Part shown: positions 9,443 to 33,819 of the stretch, in pieces | Layout of the letters: every line of letters starts with the position of its first letter | How positions within the stretch are numbered: the first letter of the stretch is position 1 | Assembly: GCF_900114385.1 (NCBI RefSeq) | Contig: NZ_FOSW01000010.1 | Span: 62,001 to 126,000, forward strand | Length of the DNA: 64,000 nt | Direction of reading: 5' to 3' | Source of the DNA: Geodermatophilus ruber | Lineage (GTDB): Bacteria > Actinomycetota > Actinomycetes > Mycobacteriales > Geodermatophilaceae | Position numbers and translations under genes: made by a program | The notes under the pieces: model-generated | Databases searched by the model: none | The model's input: the letters and a program-made list of their open reading frames with translations, nothing else | What the model was told of the DNA's origin: nothing

Positions 9443-11332
9443 TCAGGACGTGCGGCCGCTGTTATGAGCGTCGACCAGTGAGTGCAGGAAGGCGTGAGTC
9501 TCCGCATCGGTCGAATACAGCAGCGTGCCTCGCATCCCTCGGCTCAGGAGGACTTTGTAGACGTTCCTCACCAGCGCGTCGAACTCCCGATCACTGACGC
9601 GCATGGCGTTCCGGAAGTCCGGGTCCCGGTTGGCTGACCGGACGGCGACCCACCGGTCGGTACGCCACACCAGGTCCGACCCCAGGAGAACGCCGTTCCA
9701 GTCGTACTCGAAGCCCTGTGCGGTGTAGACGCAGCCGATCTGGCCGAAGCCGGCCGGCTCGCTGGCCCACAGTGCGGACGGGGGCGCGCCGCCGACCGAC
9801 CGCTCGCCCTTGAGGTTCCACGGCCGCGCCCAGTCACCGATCTGGACGTCCGGCACGAGAGTGCCGTCCTTCCGTGGGTCGCTCCAGGGCCAGCAGTAGC
9901 CGGCTGCCATCCGAGCCCCGAAGTGCTCCGCGAGCTTGGCCTCCAGGGCGCGTTCCATGGCCGATGGCGAGTCGACCACCCGTACCTCGAAATTCGGGTC
10001 GCCGTCCCACCGAACAGGGCCGCCGGGCTTGAGTCCGAGCAACCGCTCGACCCAGTCGATGTAGGCCTCCGAGCCGCCGCAGCGGTACTGAGCGCTGAGG
10101 TCCACGTGGTGGACGGCGAGGCCCCGCTTGCGTGCTGCCTTCTCGATGTCCTTAACCGTCCCGAGTTCTCCGGGGCGTACAACCTGGTTCTGGTCCAGAA
10201 GAAAAACCGGGACGCGGGCTGCGTCGATTAACTCGTCGACTTGCGCCTTGCCAGTCCGTTGATCGGCTCGCGTCCAACGGTTTGCCGAGGTCTCGCGGAG
10301 GCGGTGGGCCTCGTCGGCGATGAGGACGTCGAAGCCGTTCTTGTCGGCGTCCGTGAAGCTATTGAAGTACTTGAACAGGGACTGGACCTGGCGGGAGCCC
10401 CTGCCCGCCACCTTGCGCAGCGTCTGGGTGAAGGAACGGGAGCCCGTCGCGTGGATCGCCGACCGTCCCCGCCGGTTCAGCTCCCCTAGCAGCGACAGGG
10501 CGATGACGCTCTTTCCGCTCCCAGGACCGCCGGAGACGATGACGACGCTCTTGTGGTCGCTGGCGCGGGCCTTCTCTACCTCGTGCATCACCAGGTCGAA
10601 GGCGACGCGCTGCTCGTCGAGCAGGACGAATTGCTCCCTTCGACGGACCTCCTCCGCGGCGACGGCCATCAGCTGCTTGCTCGGCGCGATGGTGGAGTGC
10701 AGCAACCGGTCCGCGTGGACACTGCCGTCGGTCGATGCGAACCGGCTGCGCAGGAAGTCGAGCCACTCGCCGTGGTTCTGCCCGGTGAACAGTCGCCCCA
10801 GCTCGTCCTGCGGGTAGTTGAAGAGCTCGCCGACCTTGGCTGTCGTCGCGTTGTGCAGGTAGGCAGCACCGGCGAGAACGTCGGTCGTTCCGTGCAGGAC
10901 CGCGGTGAAGTCCAGCAGGTACTCGGCGTACGCCCGCACCTGCGCGACTGGGTGCAGGATCGGCCGCGGTCCGTATGACGGCTGCAGCACGAGTTCGGCG
11001 TCGTCCTCGAACTCGCTTGCCTCGGTCCACTGCTTGAGCTCGACGATGACGTAGGACGGCGCGTCCCGGTGCGGGTGGCGGCCGGCGAGCACGACGTCGA
11101 TGCGCTTGCTGCTCAACGGCAGCTGGTACTCCAGCAGGACCTCGACCTGCCCCAAGCCCGCCTGCAGCAAGTCGTCGGCGAGCACGCGGAGGCTTGCGTC
11201 CCAAGAGCGCATTTCGGCGGCCGAGGCCCGGCGCTTCAACTGGAAGGACATCTGCTCCGCGAGGGCAGCGCTCGCCCGGCCCTCTCGGGCCAGATCGGCG
11301 AGGCCTCGCGCGGAGGTGCGCAGCAGGGGCAA
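9443..11332 (-). CDS. PD-(D/E)XK nuclease fused to DUF2075 (Schlafen-type) helicase
   Basis: 629 aa. The N-terminal 110 residues contain VEVLLEYQLPLSSKRIDVVL and SYVIVELKQW. That gives Asp79 and Glu98-Leu-Lys100, a complete PD-(D/E)XK nuclease signature. The DUF2075 ATPase follows: Walker A SGGPGSGKSVIALSLL near 266, Walker B VLIADEAHRL near 336, FLLDQNQVV as motif III, AQYRCGGSEAYI, and late motifs GCVYTAQGFEYD and LLSRGMRGTLLY. The start codon appears to be TTG at 11332, because no in-frame ATG or GTG lies just upstream and the N-terminal helix (LLRTSARGLADLAREG) looks native; an ATG at residue 28 is the alternative. It is convergent with the Hhe operon and divergent from the MazG-like gene. 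Related nuclease-DUF2075 proteins are common in defence islands. The precise substrate is unknown. Confidence 0.85.
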   Translation of the reverse strand: MPLLRTSARGLADLAREGRASAALAEQMSFQLKRRASAAEMRSWDASLRVLADDLLQAGLGQVEVLLEYQLPLSSKRIDVVLAGRHPHRDAPSYVIVELKQWTEASEFEDDAELVLQPSYGPRPILHPVAQVRAYAEYLLDFTAVLHGTTDVLAGAAYLHNATTAKVGELFNYPQDELGRLFTGQNHGEWLDFLRSRFASTDGSVHADRLLHSTIAPSKQLMAVAAEEVRRREQFVLLDEQRVAFDLVMHEVEKARASDHKSVVIVSGGPGSGKSVIALSLLGELNRRGRSAIHATGSRSFTQTLRKVAGRGSRQVQSLFKYFNSFTDADKNGFDVLIADEAHRLRETSANRWTRADQRTGKAQVDELIDAARVPVFLLDQNQVVRPGELGTVKDIEKAARKRGLAVHHVDLSAQYRCGGSEAYIDWVERLLGLKPGGPVRWDGDPNFEVRVVDSPSAMERALEAKLAEHFGARMAAGYCWPWSDPRKDGTLVPDVQIGDWARPWNLKGERSVGGAPPSALWASEPAGFGQIGCVYTAQGFEYDWNGVLLGSDLVWRTDRWVAVRSANRDPDFRNAMRVSDREFDALVRNVYKVLLSRGMRGTLLYSTDAETHAFLHSLVDAHNSGRTS

Positions 11333-11962: not shown

Positions 11963-14188
11963 GTGACGCATTGGGTCGGATCGATCTCCTTCGAGCAGCG
12001 GGACAACTGGGAGATCTGCAAACGCACATCTCTCTTCGGCTCTAACACACCGACAGCGCTCGGCGTCCGCGAAGGCGACGAGCTGTTCATCTGGGGTTCC
12101 CAGCAGGGATGGCTCGCTCGGTGTCGGGTCACCGCTGACGCGCGCCGTCCAGGCGGGGTGGATGACGTCCCGTGGCCAGACCCTGAGCGGTATGTCGCGC
12201 TCATCCCCATCGAAGTACTCGGCGAGCCCGAGCAACCCGTGGCGATGTCCGGGTCGGAGATCGAGCGGACCCTCGGGATAGGCACCATCCAGCTGCCGCG
12301 TTTCCCGCGCGTCGACTCCCAGCACGCTGAGCGGCTGACCGTGCTGCTCTCGGAGAGCTACCGGTCCCACGGCCAGCTGAACGCCGCCGCGTCCTCGCAG
12401 CCGACGGCGATTGATCACCCACTTCTGCAAGCGCTCGACGACCTGAAGGTCGACCGTCAGCTGGGCCGGCCCGCGCCGTACCAGCAGCTCGTCCTCCTGT
12501 GGGCCACCGCCGAAGCGGTTCGCGGTGGTGACCGCTTGCGGTCGTTCTCGTCTGCGCGTGACGAGTTGCGCGCTCTCCTTGCGCCCTTCGCGGTGGGCGA
12601 GAGTGCGCCAGACCCCGAGCTGCCGTGGTTTGCCCTGCGGAGGTCTCCCTGGTGGCAGCTGTCTCCCGAGCCGGACGGTCCGGTCAGCCGCGGGGGTAGG
12701 GACTTTGTTCGGCGTGAGGATCCAGTCGCCGGATTGACCCGCGAGGTCCACCGCCTCGTTCGAGACAACCCGGCCTTCCGTCAGCGCGCCATCGAGAAGC
12801 TGACTACGCCGCTGGCCGGTCACGCTGCGCTGCAAGCCGCCATGGCGTCCCTCTTCTCGGCGCCAGCTCCGGAGCCAGGAGTACATGGCGAGGCCGTCAC
12901 CGTCCTCACCGAGCTCGTGGGTCGGCGGCTTAGGACGGCGACCGGTCAGGTGAACCGGGTCCTCAGGGTGGAGCCAGCCGTCGTCATCGTCGCCACGGAG
13001 CGGTCGCCGCAAGGCCAGCCGGTGCCGATCTCCGACGTTCAGCGCGCACTCGACATCCTGCGTCGGGACGGCGCTGTGACGATCGACGTGCCGACGCTGG
13101 GACATCGCAGCTCCTTCGTCGGCGCAGTGCTGGCCACTCGTGAAGACGTCTCGATCGACGGATCTCCGCCAGTTGCGTCGCTCGTTCGCGCTCCAAGGTC
13201 GCCGGGCGCCGAAGGTGCCGCATCTGTTTCAGAGCCGCCCGCCGAGCAGTCGACCGGGTCTGCGGCAAGGACGTCTGAGCAGGATGTCGCTGCACGGCCC
13301 GGTGCGGCGAAGGACCGGTACTTCGGTGAGCTTCCTGGTGTTCCCGCCGGTGCTACCTGGGCGACGCGTGCCGAGGTCGCTGCAGCGGGTGTGCACCGAC
13401 CGCTTCAGGGCGGAATCAGTGGCACACGAGCTGAAGGCTGCGACTCGATCGTCGTCAGCGGTGGCTACGAAGACGATTACGACGACGGCCACGAGATCAT
13501 CTACACCGGAGCCGGTGGGAATGATCCAGCGAGCGGCAAGCAGATCGCTGATCAGACACTTGACCAGCCAGGTAACGCGGGCCTTGTTACGAGCCAGAAC
13601 CTCGGTCTTCCGGTCCGCGTTGTGCGGGGAGCCAAGGGAGACCCGGTGCACTCACCGGCCACTGGCTACCGCTATGACGGGCTCTATCGGGTAGCTGACC
13701 ACTGGAGCAAGCTCGGCAAGAGCGGATTCCGGGTCTGGCAGTTCCGGCTGGTGCGCATTTCGGACCAGGAGTCGACTCCGTACGTCCCTCAGGAGAACGC
13801 TCCAGGTGGGCGGCAGACGCCGAAGGTTGCCCAGGGTGTGACTACTCGGGTCATCCGAGACACGAAGGTCTCCGTATTCATCAAGAAGCTGTACGAGAAC
13901 GCGTGTCAGGTCTGCGGCACACGGCTGGAGATCCCTGGTGGCTCAGTCTCCGAAGGTGCACACATTCGAGCGCTGGGAAGGCCGCACCTCGGTCCGGACA
14001 CTGTCGACAACATCCTGTGTCTCTGCCCGAATCACCACACGCTGTTCGACCAGGGGGGCATCTACGTAAGCGACGACCTGAAGGTCCACGATCACCATGG
14101 GGCGGTCATCGAAGTTCTCACCAAGCATGCAAGGCACCCCATCGACCTTGCCCATCTGAAGGCCCATCGCGAGCGGTGGGGCTATTAG
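11963..14188 (+). CDS. ScoMcrA-like type IV restriction enzyme: EVE-SBD-SRA-HNH
   Basis: 741 aa. Residues 1-125 look like an EVE/PUA-type modified-base pocket (HWVGSISFEQRDNW, then REGDELFIWGSQQGWLARCR). Residues about 150-270 resemble the DNA sulfur-binding domain of ScoMcrA (PYQQLVLLWATAEAV, later LPWFALRRSPWWQLSPE). From about 453 (YFGELPGVPAGATW through GGYEDDYDDGHEIIYTGAGG) is an SRA-YDG domain that flips modified cytosines. From about 640 is an HNH nuclease (CQVCGTRL, EGAHI, DNILCLCPNHHTLFD). ScoMcrA of Streptomyces cuts phosphorothioated or 5-methylcytosine-containing DNA. The GTG start at 11963 gives the EVE domain from its first strand. The replacement of the usual ScoMcrA head domain by an EVE-like domain is noteworthy. 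I am confident of SRA and HNH and somewhat less of EVE and SBD. Confidence 0.87.
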   Translation: MTHWVGSISFEQRDNWEICKRTSLFGSNTPTALGVREGDELFIWGSQQGWLARCRVTADARRPGGVDDVPWPDPERYVALIPIEVLGEPEQPVAMSGSEIERTLGIGTIQLPRFPRVDSQHAERLTVLLSESYRSHGQLNAAASSQPTAIDHPLLQALDDLKVDRQLGRPAPYQQLVLLWATAEAVRGGDRLRSFSSARDELRALLAPFAVGESAPDPELPWFALRRSPWWQLSPEPDGPVSRGGRDFVRREDPVAGLTREVHRLVRDNPAFRQRAIEKLTTPLAGHAALQAAMASLFSAPAPEPGVHGEAVTVLTELVGRRLRTATGQVNRVLRVEPAVVIVATERSPQGQPVPISDVQRALDILRRDGAVTIDVPTLGHRSSFVGAVLATREDVSIDGSPPVASLVRAPRSPGAEGAASVSEPPAEQSTGSAARTSEQDVAARPGAAKDRYFGELPGVPAGATWATRAEVAAAGVHRPLQGGISGTRAEGCDSIVVSGGYEDDYDDGHEIIYTGAGGNDPASGKQIADQTLDQPGNAGLVTSQNLGLPVRVVRGAKGDPVHSPATGYRYDGLYRVADHWSKLGKSGFRVWQFRLVRISDQESTPYVPQENAPGGRQTPKVAQGVTTRVIRDTKVSVFIKKLYENACQVCGTRLEIPGGSVSEGAHIRALGRPHLGPDTVDNILCLCPNHHTLFDQGGIYVSDDLKVHDHHGAVIEVLTKHARHPIDLAHLKAHRERWGY

Positions 14189-14342: not shown

Positions 14343-14558
14343 TACTCGATGACGTCGACCAGCGCAGACGACGCGCCCCGCGGGGTCTCCTTCCTCTACG
14401 ACCTGAACCGGCTCAACGTGGCGGTGTCCCGGGCCAAGGCGCTGGCCGTCGTCGTGATGAGCGAGCAGCTGCTGGACGCCGCGGTCCGCACGCCCGAGCA
14501 GCTGCGTCAGGTCAACGCGCTGTGTCGGCTCGTCGAGATGGCGTCTGTGCTCGGCTGA
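14343..14558 (+). pseudogene. 3' remnant of a TM0106-type RecB-like nuclease/helicase gene
   Basis: This fragment encodes MTSTSADDAPRGVSFLYDLN and continues through NVAVSRAKALAVVVMSEQLL to a TGA. It is the last 71 codons of the helicase motif VI region of the gene at 30571-33819, with about 93% nucleotide identity (roughly 15 mismatches in 216 bp by eye, mostly synonymous third positions). Homology starts abruptly at 14343, inside the coding sequence. No start or upstream part remains. The flanks 14189-14342 and 14559-14747 hold no recognisable gene. It looks like a junction scar at the right edge of the 1.6-14.2 kb island. Confidence 0.9.
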
Positions 14559-15848: not shown

Positions 15849-18800
15849 CTATCTCGGCGCAGCCGGGATCAGACCGGACGGGGTGTCGGTCAGCCGGTCC
15901 TCGACCAGCGCCTGGCTCAGCGCCACCTCCAGCAACGGGAACAGCACCGGGTGCGGACGGCGGTGGCCGAAGACGGCGAGGCTCGCGTGGAAAAGGTCGT
16001 TCCGCGTCCCGCCGGCCCCGGCCCGGGACAGCGCCACCATGGCGTTTCCGATCTCCTCCGGCGCGATGTGCTCCAGGGGGCGGTCGGCGCTCCAGCGTTG
16101 CCGACGGAATCCGGTCCAGCCGGCGCGGTGCAGGTCCGCCGGCCACAGGAACTCGCCGACGGCGGTGGCCGACTCGGGAAGCACCGCCAGGATCGACTCC
16201 CGCAGCGCGGCGGGCACGCGGTCGATCCCGAACGCCCAGGCGGTCAGCCGGGCCAGCCGGTTCGCGTGCACCGGCCCCTCGGCCCGCAGCCCTTCCTCCA
16301 GCACCCGGCGCACCGTCGCTGCTGCCGTCGCGGACGGCAGCAGGTCCAGCAGCCGGGCGTCACCCGCCGGCTCCGGCGTCCACGGCCGGAAGGGCACCTC
16401 GCCCTCGAGCCGGGCCGGGGCCACCGCGGGCCGGGCCGCGGTTCGGACCGGGGCGGCCGGCTCCGCCGGCGCCGCCCCGTTCCCGGGTCCGCGCCGCGGC
16501 GTCCCGGGCGGCCACCTCCAGCCGGTCGAGCACGCCCTCGCGGTCGGCCAGCCACGCCGGCAGCCACACCCGCTCGACCCGCGCCCACCCCTGCCGGCCG
16601 GCCAGCACGTCGGCCGGCAGCGCGTCGCGGTCCCAGACCGTCGGCCGCCGCGCCCACGCCGGGCCGTCCAGCAGCACCGCCGCCTCCGGCGCCCCCGGAG
16701 CCGGGGCGACCGCCAGGTCGATCCGGAACTCCGACAGCCCGACGTCCGTCCGCGCCGCCAGCCCGCGGGCACGCAGCGCCGCGGCGATCTCCTCCCGGTG
16801 CGGGTCCGGGAGGCGCACGGTGCGTCCGTCCCGCGGAACCCCAGCCGGCCCGAGCGCCGCCAGGTCCAGGTAGGCCCGCAGCAGACGGATCCCCGGTGAC
16901 GACGTCTCCTCGGCCGGCAGCGCCGCCGGGTCGAACGAGCAGAAGACCACCACCTCCCGCCGCGCCCGGGTCACCGCCACATTCAGCGCCTGCGGCCCCC
17001 GCGGCCCGGCGAGCGGCCCGACGTCCGGTGCCGGCACGCCGCGCTCGTCCACGCCGAGGACCACCGAGAGCAGCACGGTCTCGCGCTCGTCGCCCTGCGC
17101 GTGCTCGACGTCCGTGACGCACACTCCGTCAGGGGCGTCCAGCGCCTCGACCAGCAGCCGGTCCCCGGCGTCGCGGAGCATCCCCTCGACCAGCGACCGC
17201 TGCTGGGGCGTCAGCGTCACCACGGCCAGCGACGGGACGGCGTCCGATACGGCGGCGAAGCGTCGCCGCACCTCGGCCACGACCGCCGCGGCCTCGCCCG
17301 GGTTCGTCCCGCGCAGCCGCCCCGTGCGGACGAACGTCCCGTCCGTCCGCACCAATGAGATCCCCGTCCCCTCGGACGGCGCCGGGAAGCTCTTCAGCCC
17401 GCCGCCGTAGACAGCGGTGTTGCTGAACGCGATCAGCGCCTCGTCCCGGCTGCGGTAGTGCCACGACAGCTCCAGCCGCGGCACGCCGGCCCGCGCGCAG
17501 GCCGCCAGCAGGCCCTCCGCGCCGTCCGGCGGCGGCAGCTGCCGGCGGTCCCCGACGACGACGGCTGCCCGCGCGCGACCCAGCCCGCCGGCGGCCGCGG
17601 CCACCGGCAGCCGGGACGCCTCGTCGAACACCACCAGGTCGAACCGCTCGCCGGCCGGGAGCAGGCGCGCCACGGCGTCGGGGCTCGCCAGCACGCAGAC
17701 CCCCCGCGCGCCGGCCACCCGGGCGGCCCGGGCCGCCCGGGTGGCCGCGACGAACTGCCGCCGCGTCCGCTCGTGCTCCTCGCCGTCGAACGCGTCGAGC
17801 CCGGTCGCCGCCCGGCGCTCGGCCATCGCGGTCTCCGCCAGCCCGCGGGCGAACGCCCGGGCCGCGTCCTCGGCCGGCACGGCCCCGGCGAGCAGCACCT
17901 CCCGCGCCTCCTCCAGCCCGGCGGCGCGGAACAACTGGAGCCGGTCGAGCAGGTCGAGCCAGCCGCGCAGCGCGGGCAGCCCGGGGAGGTCGGCATCCCG
18001 CTGCTCCGCGGTGGCCCGCCACCGAGCCGGCAGGCCGTCGGGGCCTGCCCAGGCGGCGAGCTGCTCGGACGTCGTCCGGCCGGCCGACAGCAGCACCTCC
18101 ACGGCGTCCCGGAGCCGGGCGACCGCGACCGCCGCGGCGGGCGCCGGCCCGACGGCCGCCTCCCGCAGCACGCGGGAGAAGCCGGTCGACCCGGCCACCG
18201 CCGTGCCGGCCCGGCGCAGCTCCTGCACCCGGCGGGCGAGCAACCCGCCGTCGGTGAGCGGGGTCCACCCGGACGGCGGCGCCAGCCCCGGGACCGCCGC
18301 GGCCCGCTCCAGGAGCTCGCCGGCGGCGGCCTGCGCCTCCCGCAGCGCCGCGGTCAGCTGCGGCAGTTCGTGGGGATCCACCTCGGCGTCCGCCCGCAGC
18401 CCCGGCGCCAGCCGGGCGAGGACCGCCAGCAGCCGCCGGCGCCGGGCCAGCGGGTTCGCCGCGGCGGCGTCCCGCGCCGCGGCGGCTAGTTCGGCCAGGG
18501 GCAGGTCGAGCACGGCCGGAGTCGCCTGTGCGAGCACGGGATGCGCGGCGGGGAAGGCGGCCGTCCGGGCGCCGACCGCGGCGGCGCTCGCCGACCAGCC
18601 CGCCGTCCGCGTCGCGTCGAACACGTCGAGCGGAACGGCGGGGGCGGCGAGGACGGCGGCGAGCGCGTCCAGGTCCTCCGGCGTCCGCACCTCGGCCAGG
18701 ACGGCGGCCGGCGGACCATCGGCCGGTAGCTCCGCGACCGCCCGGTCGACGGCGACCGCCGCCTGGGCCACCTCGTACGGATCGGCGTCGGGGTCGTCGA

Positions 18801-21234
18801 GGAACCCCCACGGGGAGCGGGAGCGGGGGCCGGCCCCCGCAGCGGGTCCCGGTAATTCGCCCAGGGTGCGGCGCAGCCGGTCCACCGTCTGCGGGGAGCT
18901 GCTGGTCACGAACCCGGGCGGCACCGGCAGGGCCGGGACGTCGTCCCCGGCCGCCAGCATCCCGGCCCATGCCGACCAGTAGGACAGCCCGGCCCGGTTC
19001 TCCTCGTGCAGCCGGCGCGCGTAGTCGGCCAGGGCTCGGCGGGCGGCGTGCCGCCGTTCCGGATCGGCGCCGTGCTCCCCGGTGGCCGGGGCCGCGGCGC
19101 TGACGGTGGCCGGCCGGTGCAGGGGGAGCACCGTGCTGCCGAGGCCGGCGGTCTCCAGCCGGCGGGCGACGACGTCCAGCGCCGTCCGCTTCCCGGCCAC
19201 CACGAGCACCCGCCTGCCCTCGGCGACCGCCCGGGCGGCAAGGTTCGCGATCGTCTGCGACTTCCCGGTGCCGGGGGCGCCCTCGAGCACGAAGGTGCGG
19301 CCCGCGGTGGTCTCCGCGACGGCGCGCAGCTGGTCGGCGTCGGCCGGCAGCGGGCAGCGCGCCGCCAGCTCGTCGAGGTCGACGCGGGCGGGCTCCGGAA
19401 CGGGATCGGCGAAGGCGGTCCGCGCCGCCAGCGCGGCGAGCAGCGGATTGCGCGCGAAGTCGGCCCAGTGCGCGGCGAGGTCCCGCAGCTGCCGGGACGC
19501 GGCCACCGGCAGGAACGCGAGCTCGGCGGTCGGCTGCACGCGCCAGGGGAGACCGGTGACGGCGCGGGCGACCGCCTCCAGCTCGGCTACCGGGTCGAGC
19601 CGGCTCCCGCCGGGCTCCGGCTCCGGAACGAGCAGGCCGTGTACCCGGCGCAGCGCGTCCAGCAGCTCGCCGTTGCGGGTGACGGCACCAGCACCGGCCA
19701 GGGCGATCCGGTAGGCGCCGGTATCCGGATCACCGGAGAGCACCACCGGCACCAGCACCAGGGGCGAGCGCACCGGCCTGCCGTCGAGCTCCCAGACGAG
19801 GCTGCCGAGGCAGAGGTGCAGGTCGACGGCGCCGGTCTCGGCGACCGCCGTCCGGGCCCGCGCGGCGAGCTCCCGCAGCCGGGCCGGATAGTCGGCTGCC
19901 AAGACACCCGCCCGCACCGCCGCGTCCTCGAGCAGTGCGCCGGCCGGCACCTGGCGCGGCCGGTTCGAGGGCACGAGCGTCACCGGCGCCCCGGAGACGA
20001 CGAGCTCCGCGAGAGGCGCCAGGTCGTCCCCGGGCACCGACAGGGCCAGGCCGGAGTCCGGGGAAACGTCGAGCAGCCGGCGCCGCGGGTCGCCGCCCGG
20101 CCACCGCCACCGCCCGGCCGACGCCCGCCGCGTCGCGGCCCGGCTGTGCACGGCCGGGTCGTAGCCGACCTCGGTGTCCTCCCCGTCCGCCCCCCGGATC
20201 CGGACGGGGAGGGGCGCGATGCCCGCGAGCCGCGCGCGGACGACATCGGTGACCCCGAGGACCCCGAGCAGGTCGCCGGTCAGCCAGGCGGTGTAGGGGG
20301 CGCGGTGCAGGTCGCCGAAGGTCGCCGGCCCGGCCGCGTCGGTCAGCAGCGCCGGCTCGACCAGTGCGATCCGCCCGCGGTCGACCAGCTCGGTCAGCGC
20401 GGCGACGTCGGGCGTGACGGCGCCGCCGGTGCGGTCGCGCTCGCGCCAGTAGCCGAGGAAGGCGTGGTCCGCGGTCAGCCAGAGCAGCGGCTCCAGCCCG
20501 GCCTGCTCGAGGGCGGCCGCGAGCACGGTGACCAGGTCCAGCGGGGTGGCGATGCGGTCCTCGAGGACGGCGACCGGCGAGCGGATCGGCCGCCCCAGCT
20601 CGCCCCGCTCTGCCGCCCCGGCGGCGCGGACGCCCCGGCGGCGCACGGCGTCCACGACCGCCCCGGCGACCTGGTCGATCCGCTCGGGGTCGGCTGCGGA
20701 GGCCGCCATCGCCGGATCCCCGGTGCGCGCGGCGAGGATGTCGGCGGCGGCCCCGACGAGCGCGGTGACCGCCGGGTGCTGGGGCAGGACGTGCGCGGCG
20801 AGCAGCTCCGAGGAGAGCGGCCGCGGGAGGGTCGGCCACTCGCCGGCAGCGAGCACCCGCACCGGGACGCTCCGGTCGGCCAGCAGCCGGTCGCCGTCCC
20901 GCACCTCCACGTCCATCGTCCCCGCGGACCCCCGTCCGATCCGGCTCATCACCGCCGGGTCCAGCCGCAGGCCGGCGTCCGGGACGACGACCGTCCGCCC
21001 CGGCTCGAGGTCCACGCGCAGCTCGGCGTCGGGGCCGAGCGGACCCTCCGCCGTCCGCACGGAGAGCGTGACCGACGCCGCCTGCACCGGCTCGCCCGCA
21101 CACGTGAGGGCCAGGCGGGACACCACCGGCACCCCACCGGCCGCCAGCGCCAGGCTCAGCACGGGGGTCGGCGTCACGTCGATCCCCACGGGCGGCGGAG
21201 CCGGACGGGGACCGGCTCCCGGGGGACTGCCCAT
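15849..21234 (-). pseudogene. Second Hhe-like TGase/DUF4011/SF1 helicase/Vsr/DUF3320 protein, frameshifted
   Basis: The main frame (21234 to about 16500) encodes an Ig-like N-terminus (VLSLALAAGGVPVVSRLALT), a transglutaminase-like region near 225, a reduced DUF4011 region, Walker A GAPGTGKSQTIANL near 649, Walker B VVFDEASRLPVAAA near 1203 and a Vsr-like fold near 1480-1560. The DUF3320 domain (APEEIGNAMVALSRAGAGG) continues in another frame down to the TAG at 15849. The total span is one base more than a multiple of three, so a single extra base between about 16440 and 16510, in a very GC-rich stretch, would explain it. If repaired the product is about 1794 aa. Several catalytic positions are changed: ATPLD where the paralogue has GTCLD, and VLLDGPAW where the active nuclease has VECDGAAY. 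It is either a decaying gene or a sequencing indel in a structural paralogue. It is divergent from the NERD-helicase operon. Confidence 0.82.
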
Positions 21235-21405
21235 GAATCCTGTCTACCCGCGGAGGGCCGCCGAGCCCGGGAAGGCGAGGTCGCGACGGAGTTGCGGACG
21301 AGCTGGAGGCGACACCCGGGAGGGACACGGGGCGCCGATCTCGGGGACCGGGGCCCGCGGGTGTCAGGCTGCCGGGCGGGAGCTGTGACCAACGGGGGAG
21401 TAGAT

Positions 21406-23049
21406 GTGACCGCGCGCAGATATCCGGACGAGCCGGTGTTCGGCTCGCCCGCCGAGCAGCTGTTCGTCGAGGCGCTGCAGGAGAACCTGCCCGACGACGC
21501 TGTCCTGTTCTGCAACCTGCGCTTCAGCGACGGCAGAGAGGACCGCGAGGCTGATCTGATCGTCGCCTGGCCGGGCGTCGGCGTCGCCGTCGTCGAGGTC
21601 AAGGGCGGCAGCGTCTCGCTGCAGCGCGGGGAGTGGCGCCAGATCGGGGACGGCGTCGACCGCGTCATCCACCCGGTCGACCAGGCGGTCGCGTGCAAGT
21701 ACCTGCTCTGCGACTACCTGGCGGAGCACCCGCGCTGGTCCGCCGGCCGCCCGCGCGCCGCGCACCTCGTCGCGGTGCCGGCCACCACGCTGCCCGCGGA
21801 GTTCATCGCGCCCGGCCTGGCCCGCTGGATGGCGATCGACAAGACCGACATCCCGCACGCCGCCGCGCGGATCCGTGCGGCGCTGCAGAAGGTCCGCGAC
21901 GAACCCGAGCCGCCGACCGCTCAGGACGTGGCCGACCTCGTCGACTGCCTCGCCGGGACGGCGATCCCCCAGCAGCACCTGCTGGCGCGGCTCGCCGAGC
22001 GGGAGGCGGCCTGCGACCTGCTGACCAAGGACCAGGCCAAGCTGCTGGATTTCCTGGACGGGCGGCACCGGGTCGAGATCACCGGAGGCGCCGGTTCCGG
22101 CAAGACCTGGCTGGCCGTGGAGAAGGCTCGCCGGCTGGCCGCCGACGGCCAGCGGGTGGCGCTCATGTGCTACTCGCGCGGCCTGGCGGAGTTCCTGAGG
22201 CGCCGGGTCGAGAAGCTGCCGAAGCGTCAGCGGCCGCACTACGTCGGCACCTTCCACAACCTCGGCATCGGCTGGGGTGTCTTGCAGGGGTCGGACGACG
22301 ACAGCCGGTACTGGGAGGAGTTCCTGCCGGCCGAGATGGTGTCGCTGGCCGGGGCCCTGCCGGAGTCGGAGCGTTTCGACGCGATCGTCATCGACGAGGC
22401 GCAGGACTTCGCCGAGAGCTGGTGGGACGCCGTCCTCGCGGCGTTGCGGGACCCCGAGAAGGGGGCGCTCTACGTCTTCTCCGACGAGGGGCAGCGGATC
22501 TTCGCGCGGCAGGGGCGGCCGACCGTCGACCTGGAGTCGTTTCCCCTCATCGAGAACCTGCGCAACACCAAGCAGATCGCCGGCACCTTCTCCAGTCTGG
22601 CGCCGGGGATGAAGGCCCGTGGGCTGCCCGGCGTGCCGGTGCGCTTCGTGGATTGCAGTTCGGAGGAGGCGATCGGCGCGGCCGACGACGTCGCGGACGC
22701 GCTGCTCGAGGAGGGCTGGCCGCCGGAATCGCTGGCCCTGCTGACCACGCACCGGCGGCATCCGGTGCAGGTCGAGCGCCAGGCCGAGGGGCAGGACGCC
22801 TACTGGGCGACCTACTGGCAGAACGACGACCTCTTCTACGGGCACGTCCTCGGGTTCAAGGGGCTCGAGCGGCCGGCCGTCGTGCTGGCGGTCAACGGCT
22901 TCCGGGACGAGGCCCGTGCCCGGGAGATGTTGTACGTCGGCCTCTCCCGCGCCCGCGACCTGCTGGTCGTCTGCGGGGACGCGGAGCTCATCCGCCGCGT
23001 CGGCGGCGAAGCGGTGGCCCATCGCCTGTCCAAGTCGGTTGCGGGTTGA
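21406..23049 (+). CDS. NERD nuclease-domain/UvrD-like helicase
   Basis: 547 aa. The N-terminal NERD domain (about 15-130) contains SPAEQLFVEALQENLPDDA, EADLIVAWPGVGVAVVEVKG (Asp...Glu-x-Lys) and a Gln/Lys helix after it. An SF1 ATPase follows with Walker A GGAGSGKTWLAVEKARRL near 226, Walker B IVIDEAQDFAESW near 329, a motif IV-like region LIENLRNTKQIAGTF, GFKGLERPAVVLAV and motif VI MLYVGLSRARDLLVV near 507. The GTG at 21406 is preceded by CGGGGGAG at good spacing; a GTG at 21385 is a less likely alternative. It is first in a three-gene operon: the next start is 8 bp after its stop. NERD-helicases are thought to process DNA or RNA and are frequent in defence islands. Confidence 0.88.
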   Translation: MTARRYPDEPVFGSPAEQLFVEALQENLPDDAVLFCNLRFSDGREDREADLIVAWPGVGVAVVEVKGGSVSLQRGEWRQIGDGVDRVIHPVDQAVACKYLLCDYLAEHPRWSAGRPRAAHLVAVPATTLPAEFIAPGLARWMAIDKTDIPHAAARIRAALQKVRDEPEPPTAQDVADLVDCLAGTAIPQQHLLARLAEREAACDLLTKDQAKLLDFLDGRHRVEITGGAGSGKTWLAVEKARRLAADGQRVALMCYSRGLAEFLRRRVEKLPKRQRPHYVGTFHNLGIGWGVLQGSDDDSRYWEEFLPAEMVSLAGALPESERFDAIVIDEAQDFAESWWDAVLAALRDPEKGALYVFSDEGQRIFARQGRPTVDLESFPLIENLRNTKQIAGTFSSLAPGMKARGLPGVPVRFVDCSSEEAIGAADDVADALLEEGWPPESLALLTTHRRHPVQVERQAEGQDAYWATYWQNDDLFYGHVLGFKGLERPAVVLAVNGFRDEARAREMLYVGLSRARDLLVVCGDAELIRRVGGEAVAHRLSKSVAG

Positions 23050-23057
23050 GGAGCGAC

Positions 23058-24368
23058 GTGGCTTTCATCCTGAACGGCGTCCACTGCGAGCTGGACGCAG
23101 GGACCGTGCGCTCCGCTCTGCGGGGTGTCACTCCGGACGCCGTGCGTGAGCACTGGGTGGACGTCGATGGCGTGCACTGGCCGCCGAAGCAGGTGTTCGC
23201 GCTGGCCACCGGTCTTGAGCGAACCGAATTCACCTCCCACACGGCGCTGCGCCAACTTCAGCGTCTAGGTCTCCGGACCAGCAAGTGGGGCCCGTCCGGG
23301 ACCTCTCCGAAGCCGGCTCCCGAGCCGCTTCCGGAAGCGACCCCTGCATCGACGCACCACGGCGCGGAGGCCGCCACGTCGTCGCTCCGCGTCGTCCTCG
23401 TCGGTTGCTCGAGTTCCAAGGCCCCAACCCCTCGGCCGGCGGCCGAGCTGTTCACCGGAGGTGCCTTCGGCAAGGCGCGGGACCTGGCTCGCAGCTCTGG
23501 GCTGCCCTGGTATGTGCTGAGTGCCAAGTGGGGCCTGCTCGACCCTGATGAGGTGGTTGCTCCCTACGACGTCTACCTGGGAGACCGCTCGACTGAGTAC
23601 CGGACGGCGTGGGGCGCGTGGGTGGTTGCCCAGCTCGCCGATCGTCACGACCTGCGCGGTGCTGTGGTCGAGGTCCACGCCGGCCGGACGTATTGCGACC
23701 CGCTCGCGGCTCCCCTCGCCGCCGCGGGAGCGACGCTGCACCAGCCACTCGCCGGGCTCCGGCAAGGGGAGCGGCTGGCCTGGTATGCCCGGACGCCGGC
23801 GGCCGACGACATCCCACTGACACGAGATCCGTACGTCATCCCCGACGTCAGTTGGCTGCTCGACCCTGAGCACGCCGTCGCGCCTGCCGACTTCCTCGCG
23901 GCGGGACGCGCCAATGTCGACCGTCCCGGGCTCTACAGCTGGTGGGTCGATGCCGAGGGAGCCCACGCACTTTCCGCCGCTCTCGGCGACCTGGTGGATC
24001 CCGGACTCGTCTACGCCGGTCGGGCAGGAGGCGTGCGACCCAACGGGTCGTCCTCGACGAACACGTTGTGGGGCCGGGTCGCGGAGATGCACCTCGGAGG
24101 CAACCGGTCGTTCTCCACGTTCCGGCTGACCCTCGCCGCGTGTCTCTCAGCGGCGGCCGGGCGAGTTGTCACCGAGGCCGAGCTGAGCGCCTGGATGCAC
24201 GAGCACCTGCGCGTCGCCGTCCTGCCGCTCGAGCCCGACGAGGTGAGCGCGGGCGAGACGGAGTTGCTGAAGGTGGCGGATCCGCCGCTGAACCTGAGCG
24301 GCGTGGCCCGCACGCCGCTGCGACAGACACTCAGCCGACTGCGGTCGGCCCTCAAGGAGACGGTATGA
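23058..24368 (+). CDS. Fusion of ScoMcrA-type head domain, DUF6884 and GIY-YIG-like nuclease
   Basis: 436 aa with three parts. Residues 1-75 (FILNGVHCELDAGTVRSAL, then VHWPPKQVFALATGLERTEF and TALRQLQRLGL) resemble the N-terminal head domain of ScoMcrA-like restriction enzymes. Residues about 108-265 (RVVLVGCSSSKAPTPRPAAE, WYVLSAKWGLLDPDEVVAPY) are DUF6884. From about 290 (PGLYSWWVDAEGA, GLVYAGRAGG, LWGRVAEMHLGGN, STFRLTLAACL) is a GIY-YIG-like nuclease core with the two Tyr motifs and the basic/Asn helix. The GTG at 23058 lies 8 bp after the previous stop, behind GAGGAG. Its own stop overlaps the next start (ATGA). A link to recognition of modified DNA is inference from the head domain. I know of no characterised protein with this exact order. 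Confidence 0.8.
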   Translation: MAFILNGVHCELDAGTVRSALRGVTPDAVREHWVDVDGVHWPPKQVFALATGLERTEFTSHTALRQLQRLGLRTSKWGPSGTSPKPAPEPLPEATPASTHHGAEAATSSLRVVLVGCSSSKAPTPRPAAELFTGGAFGKARDLARSSGLPWYVLSAKWGLLDPDEVVAPYDVYLGDRSTEYRTAWGAWVVAQLADRHDLRGAVVEVHAGRTYCDPLAAPLAAAGATLHQPLAGLRQGERLAWYARTPAADDIPLTRDPYVIPDVSWLLDPEHAVAPADFLAAGRANVDRPGLYSWWVDAEGAHALSAALGDLVDPGLVYAGRAGGVRPNGSSSTNTLWGRVAEMHLGGNRSFSTFRLTLAACLSAAAGRVVTEAELSAWMHEHLRVAVLPLEPDEVSAGETELLKVADPPLNLSGVARTPLRQTLSRLRSALKETV

Positions 24369-25288
24369 CGACGGCCGACATCGCACACGTGGCATCGGAC
24401 AACGCGATCACGCGGCGCGAGCGGCGACGACAGTCGCAGTTCCGCGGGCAGGTGCTCGGCCTCCCCGCCGGGACTGACCGGAGCGGTCGGACTCTCGGCA
24501 ACTACCTGCCGGCCGAGCACTGGCGACGCAACTTCCTCAGCGAGGAGGCCGCCGAGTACGCCGAGCGGCGCGCCGAAGCCGTTCAGGCCGAAGGCGGACA
24601 GCTGGAGAAGACCCGCCTGTTCACCAACATGCTGAGCTCCATGCCCTTGGCCTTCAGTGTCTTCGGGCACCTGAGGACGCACCGCGATGCCGCAGTCCGC
24701 GTCCTGAGTGATCTGCTGGATGTCGAGATCGCCGAGCTGGTACCCGTCCGAGTCGGCCACCGGGCCATCGACGGCATCGAATGCGAGTGGGCGCCTGAGC
24801 GACGCAAGCACCTGGACGACCGGTCCGCGTTCGATGCTGTGGTCTCGACCCGGCTGGCGGACGGCCGCACTTTGCTGGTGGCGGTGGAGACCAAGTACGT
24901 CGACAACTTCAGCCGCGACCCCGAGAACGCCGACGCCGACCGGAAGTACGACCGCTTCTGCCGACAGTTCGGCATGGCGGAGGGCGCCTTCGAGCGGCTC
25001 GGGAGATTCCCGACGCGGCAGCTGCTGCGGAACGTGCTGCTCACCGAGAGCGTCCGGCGCGGCGGAGCAACCGGGTCACCGATCTTCGACCAGGCGGTGA
25101 CGGTCGTCCTGGCTCGGGACGACGACACGACGGCGCGCGCCGCGGTCGACGCACTGGACGCCGACCGCGGCGACATGCCGACAACGGTCCGCTTCATCGG
25201 CCACGGGGAGCTCGCGTCAGCGGCAGACCGGGTGCCTGAGCTCGCCGCGTGGAGCCGGGACTTCCGGCGGCGTTACGTCGGCGAGTGA
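24365..25288 (+). CDS. PGN_0703-type putative restriction endonuclease (PD-(D/E)XK)
   Basis: 307 aa. The pattern LFTNMLSSMPLAFSVFGHL followed by an extended strand pair, GIECEWAPERR, then SAFDAVVSTRLADGRTLLVA and VETKYVDNF fits the PGN_0703 family of predicted restriction nucleases. Asp near 155 and Glu-Thr-Lys near 172-174 are the candidate catalytic residues. It is translated from an ATG overlapping the previous stop by 4 bp, so it belongs to the NERD-helicase operon. No methyltransferase is encoded nearby, so classical restriction-modification is unlikely. It could be an effector or a modification-dependent nuclease. Confidence 0.82.
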   Translation: MTTADIAHVASDNAITRRERRRQSQFRGQVLGLPAGTDRSGRTLGNYLPAEHWRRNFLSEEAAEYAERRAEAVQAEGGQLEKTRLFTNMLSSMPLAFSVFGHLRTHRDAAVRVLSDLLDVEIAELVPVRVGHRAIDGIECEWAPERRKHLDDRSAFDAVVSTRLADGRTLLVAVETKYVDNFSRDPENADADRKYDRFCRQFGMAEGAFERLGRFPTRQLLRNVLLTESVRRGGATGSPIFDQAVTVVLARDDDTTARAAVDALDADRGDMPTTVRFIGHGELASAADRVPELAAWSRDFRRRYVGE

Positions 25289-25348
25289 CCCCCAGTCGGG
25301 GCTGATCAACCTCCGCCTCGGCTCACCGAGGGGAGTGCTCGATAGCCC

Positions 25349-25867
25349 TTACAGCCACGCTTCGATCTCATCGAGTTGCTCGTGGGTGAGCCCGACGAAC
25401 AGATCCGGCGCGACCACCAGCACGTGCGGATGGGCGGCCAGCCACCCGCCGGTGTCGGCGGCCTGCATCGCCAGGTCGTCGTCGATCCACACGATGCGCC
25501 GGTCGGGCTCCGCCTCGGCCACCGCGCGGGCGAGGTCGAGCTTCCGCCAACCCGCCTGGCCACCGAAGACCCCGAGGAACCCGGTCGGCGCGGCTTCCTC
25601 CCGGGCGTGCACCTTCAGCCCGCGCGGCAGCCCCATCGGCTCGGCCAGCAGGCGGTCGGCGTCCCCGGCCCACGTGCTCAGCCACTGGATCTCCACCCGG
25701 CCGGACTCGTGCAGCTCCCGCAGCCGAGCCGTGACCGTCGGGTCCCACGACAGCACGAACCCGTTGAAGGTCCCCCGCTTCCACCCCTGAGGCAGGTCCA
25801 CCCGGGCCGCGTTGAGCACGCCGTCGACGTCCAGCAGCAGGATCGGGACGTCGTCGCTCTCTGCCAC
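25349..25867 (-). CDS. HAD-like phosphatase (SAK-type HAD domain)
   Basis: 172 aa. Motif I LLLDVDGVLNAA is at residues 9-20, VEIQWLSTWAG carries the Thr/Ser motif, and RIVWIDDDLAM near 130-140 is motif III/IV. This is the small HAD type found as stand-alone hydrolases and fused to RNA-repair proteins; substrate unknown. The GTG at 25867 is preceded by GGAGGTGATC at normal spacing, a near-perfect ribosome binding site that favours it over the longer frame. It is convergent with the nuclease operon; a small 6-bp stem (25316-25331) lies between the stops. Confidence 0.8.
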   Translation of the reverse strand: MAESDDVPILLLDVDGVLNAARVDLPQGWKRGTFNGFVLSWDPTVTARLRELHESGRVEIQWLSTWAGDADRLLAEPMGLPRGLKVHAREEAAPTGFLGVFGGQAGWRKLDLARAVAEAEPDRRIVWIDDDLAMQAADTGGWLAAHPHVLVVAPDLFVGLTHEQLDEIEAWL

Positions 25868-30570: not shown

Positions 30571-33500
30571 GTGTACCGCGTCGACGGGCGGCTGGTCCTC
30601 AGCCCCAGCGACCTGACCCGGCACCAGGAGTGCCACCACCTCACCGCGCTCAATCTCGCCGTCGCCGGCGGCGGGTTGCAGCCGCCGGCCGAGGGGGCGA
30701 GTGATCAGACGGTGCTCGTCGCCGACCTCGGCCTGGCCCACGAGCTGCGCTACCTGGAGTCGCTGGAGGAGCAGGGCCTGACGACGGTCCGGCTGCAGGG
30801 CCGCCGCAGCGAGGCGGCCACCGTCGAGGCGATGCGCGCCGGGGTCGACGTCATCCACCAGGCGACCCTGTTCGACGGCACCTGGGGCGGCCAGGCCGAC
30901 TTCCTGCTGCGCATCGACGAGCCGTCCGACCTCGGCGACTGGTCCTACGAGGTGGCCGACGCCAAGCTGGCCCGCCGGATCAAGGTGCCGGCGCTGCTGC
31001 AGATGGCCACCTACGCCGACCGGCTGGCCACCCTGCAGGGCCGCACGCCCGAGCGCATCAGCGTCGTCACCGGCGACGGCGAGACCCGTCCCTGGCGGCT
31101 GGTCGACGTCGCCGCCTACGCCCGCCGCGCCCGCACCCGCCTCGAGCAGTTCGTCGACGACGTCCCATCCACCGGCCCCGTGCCGATCGCGCACTGCGAC
31201 CAGTGCACCTGGCAGGCCCGCTGCGCCGACGAGCTGCGCACCGGCGACGACCTCAGCCTGGTCGCCGGCATGCGCCGCGACCAGCGCGCCGCCCTCCTCG
31301 ACGCCGGGGTCGCCACCCTCGAGCAGCTCGCCGCGGCCGACGACGAGACCCTCAAGGCCACCGGCATCAGCCGAGGCACCCGCGAGCGGCTGCGGGACCA
31401 GGCCCGCGAGCAGCTCCGCGGCCGCCGCGCAGGCGAGCCGACCCGCACCCTGCTGGCACCCCAGCCGGCCCAGGGCCTGCTGCGCCTCCCCGCGCCCAGC
31501 CCCGGCGACCTCTACCTCGACTTCGAGGGCGACCCGCTGGCCGGCGACGGCGAGGGGCTGGAGTACCTGGCCGGCCTCGGCGACCGGGAGGGCCGGTTCA
31601 CCGCCCTCTGGGCGCACGACGCCGCCGAGGAGCGCCGCATGGTCGAGGACCTCATCGACCGCATCGTCGAGGCCTGGCGCGCCGACCCCGGCATGCACGT
31701 CTACCACTACGCCGCCTACGAGGTCAGCGCGCTCAAGCGGCTCACCGGCCGGTACGGCGTCCGCGAGGCCGAGCTGGACCAGCTGCTGCGCGCCGAGCGG
31801 TTCGTCGACCTCTATCCGGTCGTCCGCCAGTCGATGCGGATCAGCAAGGAGTCCTACTCGATCAAGAAGGTCGAGGCCTTCTACGGGCGCGAGCACACCG
31901 GCGACGTCGCCGACGCGATGTCCAGCGTCGTCGAGTACGAGCAGTGGCTGGCCGACCGCGACCCGGCCCGCCTGCAGGCCATCCACGACTACAACCGGGA
32001 CGACGTCGACTCCACCCGCGAGCTGCACGACTGGCTGGAGACCCAGCGCGCCGAGCTGGAGGCCGAGCACGGTGAGCTGCCGCGCCCGATGCTGTCCGAG
32101 ATCGACGCCCCGGCGCCGCGGTCGGACGCCGAGGTCACCGAGCTGGCGCTGGTCGAGCGGCTGCAGGACACGGGCCACCCGCTGCTCGGCGACCTGGTGC
32201 AGTGGCACCGACGCGAGGCCCGGCCTGGCTGGTGGGAGTTCTTCAGCCGCGGCGAGCTGGAGGACGAGCAGCTCGTCGAGGACCGCACCGCGCTCGGCGC
32301 GCTCTCCGGCGGCGCCGAGATCGGCACCGAGAAGCGCAGCAAGCTCTACGAGTTCACCTTCCCGCCGCAGGACACCAAGCTGTCGGTCAAGTCCGTGGCG
32401 TTCGACGTCGACACCCGCGTCCGGGTCGGCGAGGTACGCGAGATCGACGCCGTCGCCGGCCGGGTCGTGGTCAAGAGCGCCAAGCCGCCGGCGCCGCCGC
32501 GCGGCCTCGGCCCGGAGGGCCCGCTGGACGACAAGGCCATGCGGGCGGCGATCGCCGCGACCGCGGACGACGTCCTCGCCGGCCGGCCCTGCCTCGGGCG
32601 GGCGCTGCTCGACCGCGTCGTCCCGGCCGACTGCCGGCGGCTGCCGGGGGAGGAGGCCGGGGACGCCGTCGTCCGGCTCGGGCTGGAGCTTGAGGGGCAG
32701 GTGCTCGCCGTGCAGGGGCCGCCCGGCAGCGGCAAGACGCGGGCGGCCTCGCGGCTGATCCGCGCGCTGCTCGACGCCGGCAAGAAGGTCGGCGTCACGG
32801 CGACCTCCCACGCGGTGATCGGCAACGTGCTGCGTGCCGTGGGCCGCCCGGCGCTGCAGAAGTGCGAGGAGCACCAGGCCTGCGGGGCGCCGGACGTCGA
32901 GTGGTCGAAGGACTCGGGCGAGGTGGCCTCCCGGCTGCTGGACGGGTCGGCGTCGCTGGTCGGCGGGACGGCCTGGTTCTGGTGCCGGCCGGATTTCGCC
33001 GAGGCGGTCGACGTCCTGGTGGTCGACGAGGCGGGGCAGTTCTCGCTGGCCAACGCGGTCGCCGTCGCCCGCTCGGCCCGTTCCCTGGTGCTGCTCGGTG
33101 ACCCGCAGCAGCTGGCGCAGCCGACGCAGGCCGTGCACCCGGGGGAGTCGGGGCTCTCCGCGTTGGAGCACCTGCTGGAGGGGCACCCGACCGTGCCCGA
33201 GGACCGCGGCGTCTTCCTCGACCGGACCTACCGGATGCACCCGGCGCTGACCGCGTTCGTCTCCGACCTGGCCTATGAGGGGCGGCTGGAGTCGGCGGCC
33301 GACCGCGAGCGGATCGCGGTGCGCGGCTGGGCCAGCGGCCTCGCCGTCCGGTTCGTCGCGCATACGAAGCCGGCGGCGGCCGCATCGGACGACGAGGCGG
33401 CCGCCGTGGCGGAGCTGTGGCGGTCGCTGCAGGGCGTCGTCTGGGTCGACCACGAGCTGGTCGAGCGGCCGATCGGGCCCGAGGACGTGCTGGTCGTCGC

Positions 33501-33819
33501 GCCGTACAACAACCAGGTCGCGCGCATTCGAAGCCTGCTGCCGGACGGCGCGCGGGTCGGCACCGTGGACAAGTTCCAGGGCCAGGAGGCGCCGGTCGTC
33601 GTCTACTCGATGACGTCGACCAGCGCCGAGGACGCCCCCCGCGGGGTCTCGTTCCTCTACGACCTGAACCGGCTCAACGTGGCGGTGTCGCGGGCCAAGG
33701 CGCTGGCCGTCGTGGTCATGAGCGAGCAGCTGCTGGACGCCGCCGTCCGCACGCCGGAGCAGCTGCGTCAGGTCAACGCGCTGTGCCGGCTCGTCGAAAT
33801 GGCGACCGTCGTCGGCTGA
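30571..33819 (+). CDS. TM0106-type RecB-like nuclease with RNase H-like domain and SF1 helicase
   Basis: 1082 aa. The N-terminal RecB-like nuclease (LSPSDLTRHQECHHLTALNL; YEVADAKLAR as the D/K pair; CDQCTWQARC near 208 with the iron-sulfur-type Cys cluster) is followed by helix-hairpin-helix-like repeats. A DEDD/RNase H-like exonuclease domain comes next (LYLDFEGDPLAGDGEGLEYL ... VYHYAAYEVSALKRL ... IHDYNRDDVDSTREL). The C-terminal SF1 helicase has Walker A GPPGSGKTRAA near 715, Walker B VVDEAGQFS near 816 and motif VI LNRLNVAVSRAKALAVV. GTG at 30571 is used. It is a stand-alone gene. Its last 72 codons are duplicated in the remnant at 14343. A DNA repair or defence role is plausible; no partner is seen. 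Confidence 0.88.
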   Translation: MYRVDGRLVLSPSDLTRHQECHHLTALNLAVAGGGLQPPAEGASDQTVLVADLGLAHELRYLESLEEQGLTTVRLQGRRSEAATVEAMRAGVDVIHQATLFDGTWGGQADFLLRIDEPSDLGDWSYEVADAKLARRIKVPALLQMATYADRLATLQGRTPERISVVTGDGETRPWRLVDVAAYARRARTRLEQFVDDVPSTGPVPIAHCDQCTWQARCADELRTGDDLSLVAGMRRDQRAALLDAGVATLEQLAAADDETLKATGISRGTRERLRDQAREQLRGRRAGEPTRTLLAPQPAQGLLRLPAPSPGDLYLDFEGDPLAGDGEGLEYLAGLGDREGRFTALWAHDAAEERRMVEDLIDRIVEAWRADPGMHVYHYAAYEVSALKRLTGRYGVREAELDQLLRAERFVDLYPVVRQSMRISKESYSIKKVEAFYGREHTGDVADAMSSVVEYEQWLADRDPARLQAIHDYNRDDVDSTRELHDWLETQRAELEAEHGELPRPMLSEIDAPAPRSDAEVTELALVERLQDTGHPLLGDLVQWHRREARPGWWEFFSRGELEDEQLVEDRTALGALSGGAEIGTEKRSKLYEFTFPPQDTKLSVKSVAFDVDTRVRVGEVREIDAVAGRVVVKSAKPPAPPRGLGPEGPLDDKAMRAAIAATADDVLAGRPCLGRALLDRVVPADCRRLPGEEAGDAVVRLGLELEGQVLAVQGPPGSGKTRAASRLIRALLDAGKKVGVTATSHAVIGNVLRAVGRPALQKCEEHQACGAPDVEWSKDSGEVASRLLDGSASLVGGTAWFWCRPDFAEAVDVLVVDEAGQFSLANAVAVARSARSLVLLGDPQQLAQPTQAVHPGESGLSALEHLLEGHPTVPEDRGVFLDRTYRMHPALTAFVSDLAYEGRLESAADRERIAVRGWASGLAVRFVAHTKPAAAASDDEAAAVAELWRSLQGVVWVDHELVERPIGPEDVLVVAPYNNQVARIRSLLPDGARVGTVDKFQGQEAPVVVYSMTSTSAEDAPRGVSFLYDLNRLNVAVSRAKALAVVVMSEQLLDAAVRTPEQLRQVNALCRLVEMATVVG

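Follow-up and report, generated by a model that had tools for sequence, protein, structure and literature searches.

What does a tightly packed set of one nuclease-helicase gene and two further nuclease genes do in the genome of Geodermatophilus ruber? We addressed this question for an operon within a 64,000-nucleotide stretch of contig NZ_FOSW01000010.1 (positions 62,001 to 126,000; hereafter the window, in whose numbering coordinates are given). As a sequence-only reading had proposed, three open reading frames (ORFs) on the plus strand make up the operon: a NERD nuclease joined to a UvrD-type superfamily 1 (SF1) helicase (21406..23049; 547 amino acids (aa), GTG start), a middle gene (23058..24368; 436 aa) that fuses a head (residues 1 to ~75), a DUF6884 domain (112-244), and a GIY-YIG_2 nuclease (314-430), and a PDDEXK_13 nuclease of the PGN_0703 type (24365..25288; 307 aa). 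Genes two and three indeed share the 4-bp ATGA overlap that had been described. The reported 8-bp spacing between genes one and two holds if the middle gene starts at GTG 23058, but not if it starts at TTG 23046, an alternative that overlaps the NERD stop codon by 4 bp, as laid out in the relative L001. A scan of 20900-25700 detected neither promoter nor terminator. We found the gene set to be real, recurrent, and rearranging among the Geodermatophilaceae, where the same few partners have been reassembled repeatedly beside the helicase with tight same-strand spacing; a role in restriction is plausible.

Pfam assigned the NERD, GIY-YIG, and PDDEXK_13 families, which had been named from the sequence alone, all above their cut-offs, and UvrD and DUF6884 along with them. 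The first protein matched NERD (1.2e-10), UvrD (1.3e-7), and UvrD_C_2 (3e-7), the middle protein DUF6884 (4.9e-44) and GIY_YIG_2 (3.8e-12), and the third PDDEXK_13 (1.5e-77) and REase-ARP (8.1e-24). The residues that we take to form the catalytic motifs are in place: D50/E64/K66 of the NERD domain are conserved in 48 of 49 homologues (with one gap), K233, D330, and E331 of the helicase, Walker A included, in 49/49, and D157/E175/K177 of PDDEXK_13 in 11 of 12 (one gap); the GIY-YIG motif residues occur in the window protein and, depending on the site, are conserved in 17 to 22 of the 22 fusions. Of the features of a type IV restriction enzyme, a nuclease with its motif residues is found in the GIY-YIG, PDDEXK_13, and NERD domains alike; a cognate methyltransferase is absent from the Pfam matches of all three proteins, as the sequence-only reading had stated; and for the sensing domain there are candidates in DUF6884 and, weakly, in the SCO5918-like head. 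That this head is of the McrA type was not confirmed: Pfam returned nothing for it up to E 0.01, and NCBIfam gave only a sub-threshold match to the SCO5918 family (29.3 bits, cut-off 60). The head can also be swapped, as in the L005 fusion, where DUF7669 (Pfam 4e-22) replaces it. The L006 fusion aligns with this DUF7669-headed protein, the L078 fusion begins similarly, and the split fusion of L007 has a similar start, located in another frame.

How often does this gene set occur? Among 112 Geodermatophilaceae genomes searched, the NERD helicase was carried by 49, which rules it out as a core gene, PDDEXK_13 by 13, the DUF6884-GIY-YIG fusion by 11, and an OGG-like glycosylase by 10, mostly in distant versions. 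In 10 of the 11 fusion carriers, the fusion follows the NERD helicase closely (within 2 kb) and shares its strand. PDDEXK_13 joins this pair, close by and on the same strand, in four of the 11, each time in a different order: NERD-fusion-PDDEXK in the window, NERD-PDDEXK-fusion in L078, NERD-OGG-PDDEXK-fusion in L007, and PDDEXK-NERD-fusion in L005, where PDDEXK_13 ends ~0.95 kb before the NERD start. The expectation that the three genes recur together was therefore borne out for the fusion and its helicase, but neither for a fixed trio, which is too narrow a description given the shuffled order and the four full sets, nor for unrelated genomes (0/11, see below). Partial sets also occur: genome G083 (L126) has the order NERD-OGG-PDDEXK with the fusion absent, two contig ends of G017 are consistent with the same set (the OGG-like glycosylase being in two pieces), and in G105 a more distant PDDEXK_13 lies two genes behind NERD. 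PDDEXK_13 stands without NERD in G019, G003, and G008, ~5 kb off on the opposite strand in G080, and convergent in G062. Its close versions (at least 64%) were found in eight genomes, adjoining NERD in five (G000, G135, G083, G074, and G076); of the others, G017 fits across its contig break, G019 lacks NERD, and G093 has both genes at contig ends. Locus genes were called with a custom codon-usage caller, which over-extended at least the L005 NERD gene and missed some genes, and loci that are copies were excluded (L049, L062, L075, L076, L077, and L116, of L001, L003, L005, L006, L007, and L002, respectively). In L053 and L136, GIY-type genes that precede NERD were left uncounted because they match a custom profile only and not Pfam.

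The immediate neighbors of the helicase show how the set is put together. At eight loci, NERD is followed immediately by the fusion or its head, with gaps of -4 to +10 bp in seven and of -29 bp in one. Across the 48 of 49 loci in which a downstream gene was called, this gene was the fusion or its head in these eight, OGG in three, PDDEXK_13 in one, a small DUF7662-type gene in three (an assignment resting on one tested member), and another gene in 33, with six of the 48 on the opposite strand. Directly upstream of NERD, 12 of 49 loci carry a DEDDh exonuclease-BRCT gene, in seven with a 4-bp overlap, which corresponds to the PADLOC candidate PDC-S48 (5e-132). We built a tree from 49 NERD proteins, each exceeding 480 residues and nine being fusion-linked (the split NERD gene of L115 was left out). 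On it, the label “fusion-linked” requires 8 gains or losses, and shuffled labels did equally well in 214 of 500 trials. Since the label is as scattered as shuffled ones, the pairing does not descend from a single old adjacency; the partner is gained and lost, yet arrives repeatedly at the same place.

The scatter on the tree, together with the wide variety of genes directly behind NERD, would suit a defense-island hotspot, where NERD marks a landing spot for unrelated defense genes that act alone and share no joint function. Fusions outside the family, which stand alone, and the separation of PDDEXK_13 from NERD in L005 would suit it as well. A mere landing spot accounts less readily for the shared strand in 10 of 10 pairs with several 4-bp stop/start overlaps, for the return of the same few partners in changed order, and for the close PDDEXK_13 adjoining NERD in five of eight genomes, and we consider this account unlikely.

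In the same genome, ~23-28 kb before the window operon, we also noticed a second gene row (L069:12775-17966). It comprises a DEDDh exonuclease belonging to the family that adjoins NERD, an ATPase-like protein, and a 331-aa protein in which the head of the middle gene is joined to another domain that has no Pfam match.

The explanation that we favor, with a confidence that is evenly balanced rather than strong, is that the operon is an accessory restriction module of the Geodermatophilaceae, serving defense and assembled around the NERD nuclease-helicase, which would resemble a type IV enzyme with a helicase-nuclease follow-up. A sensor-plus-nuclease arrangement of this kind fits the domains as read from the sequence. 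The fusion protein would recognize modified or damaged bases of incoming DNA through its head and its DUF6884 domain (YaaA/DpdC-like, with predicted base-flipping), and its GIY-YIG domain would nick near the recognized base. The NERD helicase would then load at the nick and go on to unwind and degrade the DNA, with PDDEXK_13 as a second cutter; in sister operons, the OGG-like glycosylase or the DEDDh exonuclease may take a comparable role. Because host DNA without the modification would be spared, a methyltransferase would be unnecessary. Defense itself, the substrate, the order of these events, and the sparing of host DNA are steps that we infer, and the operon may, as had been suggested from the sequence alone, depend on modification and act abortively. 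This reading draws on the DNA-base theme among the partners, exemplified by the OGG-like glycosylase in L007, in L126, and in two pieces at G017 contig ends and by the DEDDh exonuclease, on BrxC near two outside-family fusions (L081 and L086), and on the SRA-HNH, Schlafen-type, and ProA-type genes that the window also holds.

Several observations weigh against a restriction module. Within the family, one fusion carrier (G006) has no NERD gene, 39 of the 49 NERD genomes are without a fusion partner, and in the carriers L007, L079, and L115 the fusion or the NERD gene is split over frames in the draft sequence. Outside it, a class sample of 394 genomes (at most four candidates scored per genome) gave a match in 23, the window's own genome included. 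From this sample and the Mycobacterium locus L008 we called 11 outside-family fusions, and none had this NERD helicase within 5 kb, with an upstream view of only ~1.6 kb in L083 and L085; four of the 11 (L087 and L089-L091) are without the CxxxK pair of DUF6884. L084 and L113, whose DUF6884 and GIY parts were called as two genes, were excluded as fusions, NERD not being in view there. Foldseek searches of the PDB with models of the middle and PDDEXK_13 proteins returned nothing below E 0.001. Finally, repair enzymes would give a similar list of domains. Several of the top Foldseek matches of the PDDEXK_13 model were nucleases, at E 0.06 and worse, and PDB sequence searches gave no useful match. 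As to the wider surroundings, BrxC/PglY, a DNA methylase, and a TrwC relaxase are neighbors of one outside-family fusion (L081), and BrxC is a neighbor of another (L086); a Rhodococcus plasmid copy (H3) is situated among transposase genes. PDDEXK_13 occurred in 3 of 396 genomes of a phylum-wide sample at 1e-15 (at most five candidates scored per genome), one of them the window's own.

Could the operon then serve repair? Geodermatophilaceae tolerate ultraviolet (UV) light and desiccation, and an accessory excision-repair kit for such soil bacteria could consist of the NERD helicase, the DEDDh exonuclease, the OGG-like glycosylase, a lesion-binding DUF6884, and a UvrC-like GIY-YIG nuclease. Every one of the domains has repair relatives, and OGG and DEDDh are indeed operon partners. 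The DUF6884 member YfjM is among the identified binders of abasic and RNA-base lesions, according to the available part of PMC11701544. Outside the family, a DUF6884 protein in L065 (9809-11161, +) bears a C-terminal part that by eye resembles a glycosylase of the EndoIII type, four-cysteine cluster included, where Pfam finds DUF6884 only. A repair kit is at odds with the patchy spread of the parts over the 112 genomes given above, with PDDEXK_13 being a restriction-type nuclease, and with the neighborhood, as ProA- and SRA-HNH-type genes adjoin in the window and two fusions elsewhere adjoin BrxC. An exact SOS box (presumed consensus GAACN4GTTC) was found upstream of 0 of 49 NERD operon starts, compared to 6 of 1528 in the background; because the background is also low, its absence speaks only weakly against repair. 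With at most one mismatch, 7 of 49 operon starts compared to 141 of 1528 in the background matched, which leaves SOS control unsupported, and a PafBC-type pattern, likewise presumed, was uninformative, at 0/49 and 0/1528. Lack of the SOS box and scattered occurrence are mild arguments against repair, which we regard as unlikely overall.

What might DUF6884 read? The window domain contains both motifs of the YaaA fold, CxxxK and LSAxxG, and CxxxK is kept in 17 of 22 fusions, lost in four, and unaligned in one. Pfam's authors describe DUF6884 as related to YaaA, with a flipped nucleotide modeled in a predicted base-flipping site (PMC11701544). A model of the middle protein (predicted local distance difference test (pLDDT) score of 74.9, from 9 sequences) gave a best PDB match at only E 0.3, with no YaaA entry among the best 50 Foldseek matches listed. 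In PADLOC, the fusion matched PDC-M57A and, weakly, DpdC (window 2.6e-6; L005 1.5e-7). DpdC belongs to the Dpd 7-deazaguanine system and, in the part of PMC12839542 available, to the DUF328/YaaA family; the GATOR-GC preprint, as far as excerpts show, enters dpdC under DUF6884 (PMC11888242). In Halorubrum virus HRTV-29, an archaeal virus, a DUF6884-like gene (L151, 3989-5114) that is annotated as peroxide stress protein YaaA overlaps the annotated DpdA gene by 8 bp, and a DUF6884 gene on a Variovorax plasmid, next to a type I-E CRISPR locus, shares a 4-bp overlap with dpdB. Four other phage records and one other plasmid, in which most genes are unnamed, have no annotated dpd gene near DUF6884, and the PF23859 (dpdA) profile matched none of eight DUF6884 records, one with an annotated DpdA included, and no controls, and was uninformative. 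Because the other records lack annotated dpd genes and the profile failed its control, the deazaguanine link of DUF6884 is a lead, short of a result. As a side observation, a DUF6884-like stretch was found in 77 phage records, 64 of which are Mycobacterium phages.

Followed to its end, this lead would make the fusion a restriction enzyme for 7-deazaguanine DNA: a DpdC/YaaA-like pocket that once served preQ0-type processing would read or remove such bases in phage DNA, GIY-YIG would cut beside them, and the NERD helicase would finish the DNA. Base readers (DUF6884 or OGG-like) would be exchanged, along with heads and cutters, beside a constant NERD helicase, making the locus a plug-in restriction platform. 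We know of no dedicated deazaguanine-dependent restriction enzyme, and this more specific version is speculative and distinctly improbable.

Does the restriction module match a system already described? PADLOC protein models name no such gene set, in agreement with the sequence-only reading. The component families are known, and in the open PMC literature searched we found no description of a DUF6884-GIY-YIG fusion together with a NERD helicase, nor the combination as a whole. CMoRE (PD-T4-3), as the available part of PMC12923530 describes it, is a single-gene GIY-YIG type IV enzyme whose GIYxY-YIG motif has a third tyrosine. It likewise joins a GIY-YIG nuclease to a separate sensor of modified bases and does without a methyltransferase. 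Whereas CMoRE acts alone with its nuclease first, the window fusion has its nuclease last, reads GLYSWW, has DUF6884 as its candidate sensor, and stands behind NERD; it lacks the GIYxY-YIG motif, and PADLOC shows no PD-T4-3 match. The weak DpdC match of DUF6884 is shared with the Dpd system, but here the domain is joined to a nuclease, and no DpdA or DpdB match, as expected beside dpdC, was found among the nine window proteins scanned; a DpdJ match (PADLOC, 8e-14) lies on a helicase of the window at 30571-33819. Brig1 and the restriction glycosylases also attack foreign DNA at its bases, and the sister operons contain an OGG-like glycosylase; as the accessible parts of PMC11078745 and PMC10273834 have it, however, Brig1 leaves abasic sites, whereas the window operon encodes nucleases and a helicase. 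NERD-UvrD helicases of DRT and CBASS systems have the same two-domain build (RTasNERD-Hel 1e-29, C3a187 8.9e-24, in PADLOC), but no reverse transcriptase or CD-NTase model was among the matches listed for the nine window proteins. GajB models of Gabija matched the NERD helicase weakly (best 2.1e-10), and its partner GajA was absent from the best 25 of the 34 matches of the NERD protein.

Facing the operon on the minus strand is a giant gene, and one may ask whether it belongs. It had been taken for one intact Hhe-like gene, which was not confirmed: the giant (15849-21234) consists of two ORFs in different frames, through a break that may be genuine or an assembly error, the frame along its homologues in L005 and L057 switching from -2 to -3, and its best curated match is ProA, with Hhe weaker. 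The N-terminal part (16360..21234, -) holds DUF4011 (2.2e-15), an AAA helicase, and MTES_1575 (1.8e-14), and the C-terminal part (15849..16424, -) a DUF3320 domain (6.9e-6 on ORF 15849-16772). The 171 bp said to separate it from the operon were recovered, with its longest ORF starting at 21234. This layout of DUF4011, helicase, MTES_1575, and DUF3320 is that of ProA (NF058533) and Hhe (NF042953), but the window giant falls under both cut-offs: its two parts scored 942.7 and 71.7 bits for ProA (cut-off 1500), and it scored 299.5 bits for Hhe (cut-off 2000). The source of NCBIfam's name ProA could not be traced in the open PMC literature. Giants lay within 8 kb of 4/10 fusion-linked NERD loci compared to 0/42 others, a count in which ~30 loci show at most ~4 kb upstream and all four giants lie within ~2.1 kb of NERD. 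Because it is near only four of ten operons, split in two frames, and ProA-like, the giant is probably a separate neighbor, dispensable to and outside the operon, and as an operon partner we mostly rejected it.

Giants do form a module elsewhere. A ProA-type giant adjoins a gene that has DUF6884 only at nine loci (L057, L064, L096, and L098-L103), six of which also have a DEDDh exonuclease of the family that adjoins NERD. This is a separate recurring module; L096 and L098-L103 belong to one genus (g11), the giant is a fragment in L099 and short in L103, and the DUF6884 gene of L057 carries a DUF7669 head. Giant-near DUF6884-only genes have lost CxxxK in 8 of 10 cases, keeping it in one (L092, outside the family) and being unaligned in one; given this loss, they probably do something else. 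One could still propose that a ProA plus DUF6884 system is the core, to which our operon is accessory, with NERD and PDDEXK_13 as extras. This module and the proximity counts would support such a core, but six of the ten fusion operons have no giant, two of the four giants (L006 and L078) are of another type, the window giant is split, and the motif loss sets the giant-paired domains apart, so that we hold it to be very unlikely.

The rest of the window bears further genes of this kind. Its left part looks like a defense island, with a DUF4011 giant (3833-9397, +; PDC-S37 1242 bits, ProA 1211.7 bits, below the cut-off), a Schlafen-type helicase (9443-11332, -), and an SRA-HNH gene (11963-14188, +). 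A 69-aa ORF (14349-14558, +) has a sub-threshold AAA_12 match and is similar to the final portion of the TM0106-type helicase (30571-33819); it is perhaps the leftover of a decayed copy of such a helicase. Among ordinary metabolic genes, an unbroken ProA-type giant (54930-61103, -) passes the NF058533 cut-off at 1762.5 bits, as does the L005 giant at 1752.8, and is related to the split giant. A scan of the whole window returned zero tRNAs.

DUF6884, a domain of unknown function, turns up in several settings: in Dpd islands, in a virus next to a gene annotated dpdA, close to BREX genes, and in the operon studied here. If the restriction module is real, the operon would offer a direct test of DUF6884 as a reader of odd bases and a source of candidate enzymes for detecting such bases. 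For the Geodermatophilaceae, it would show how type IV-like enzymes may be assembled, from a constant helicase-nuclease and exchangeable base readers and cutters.

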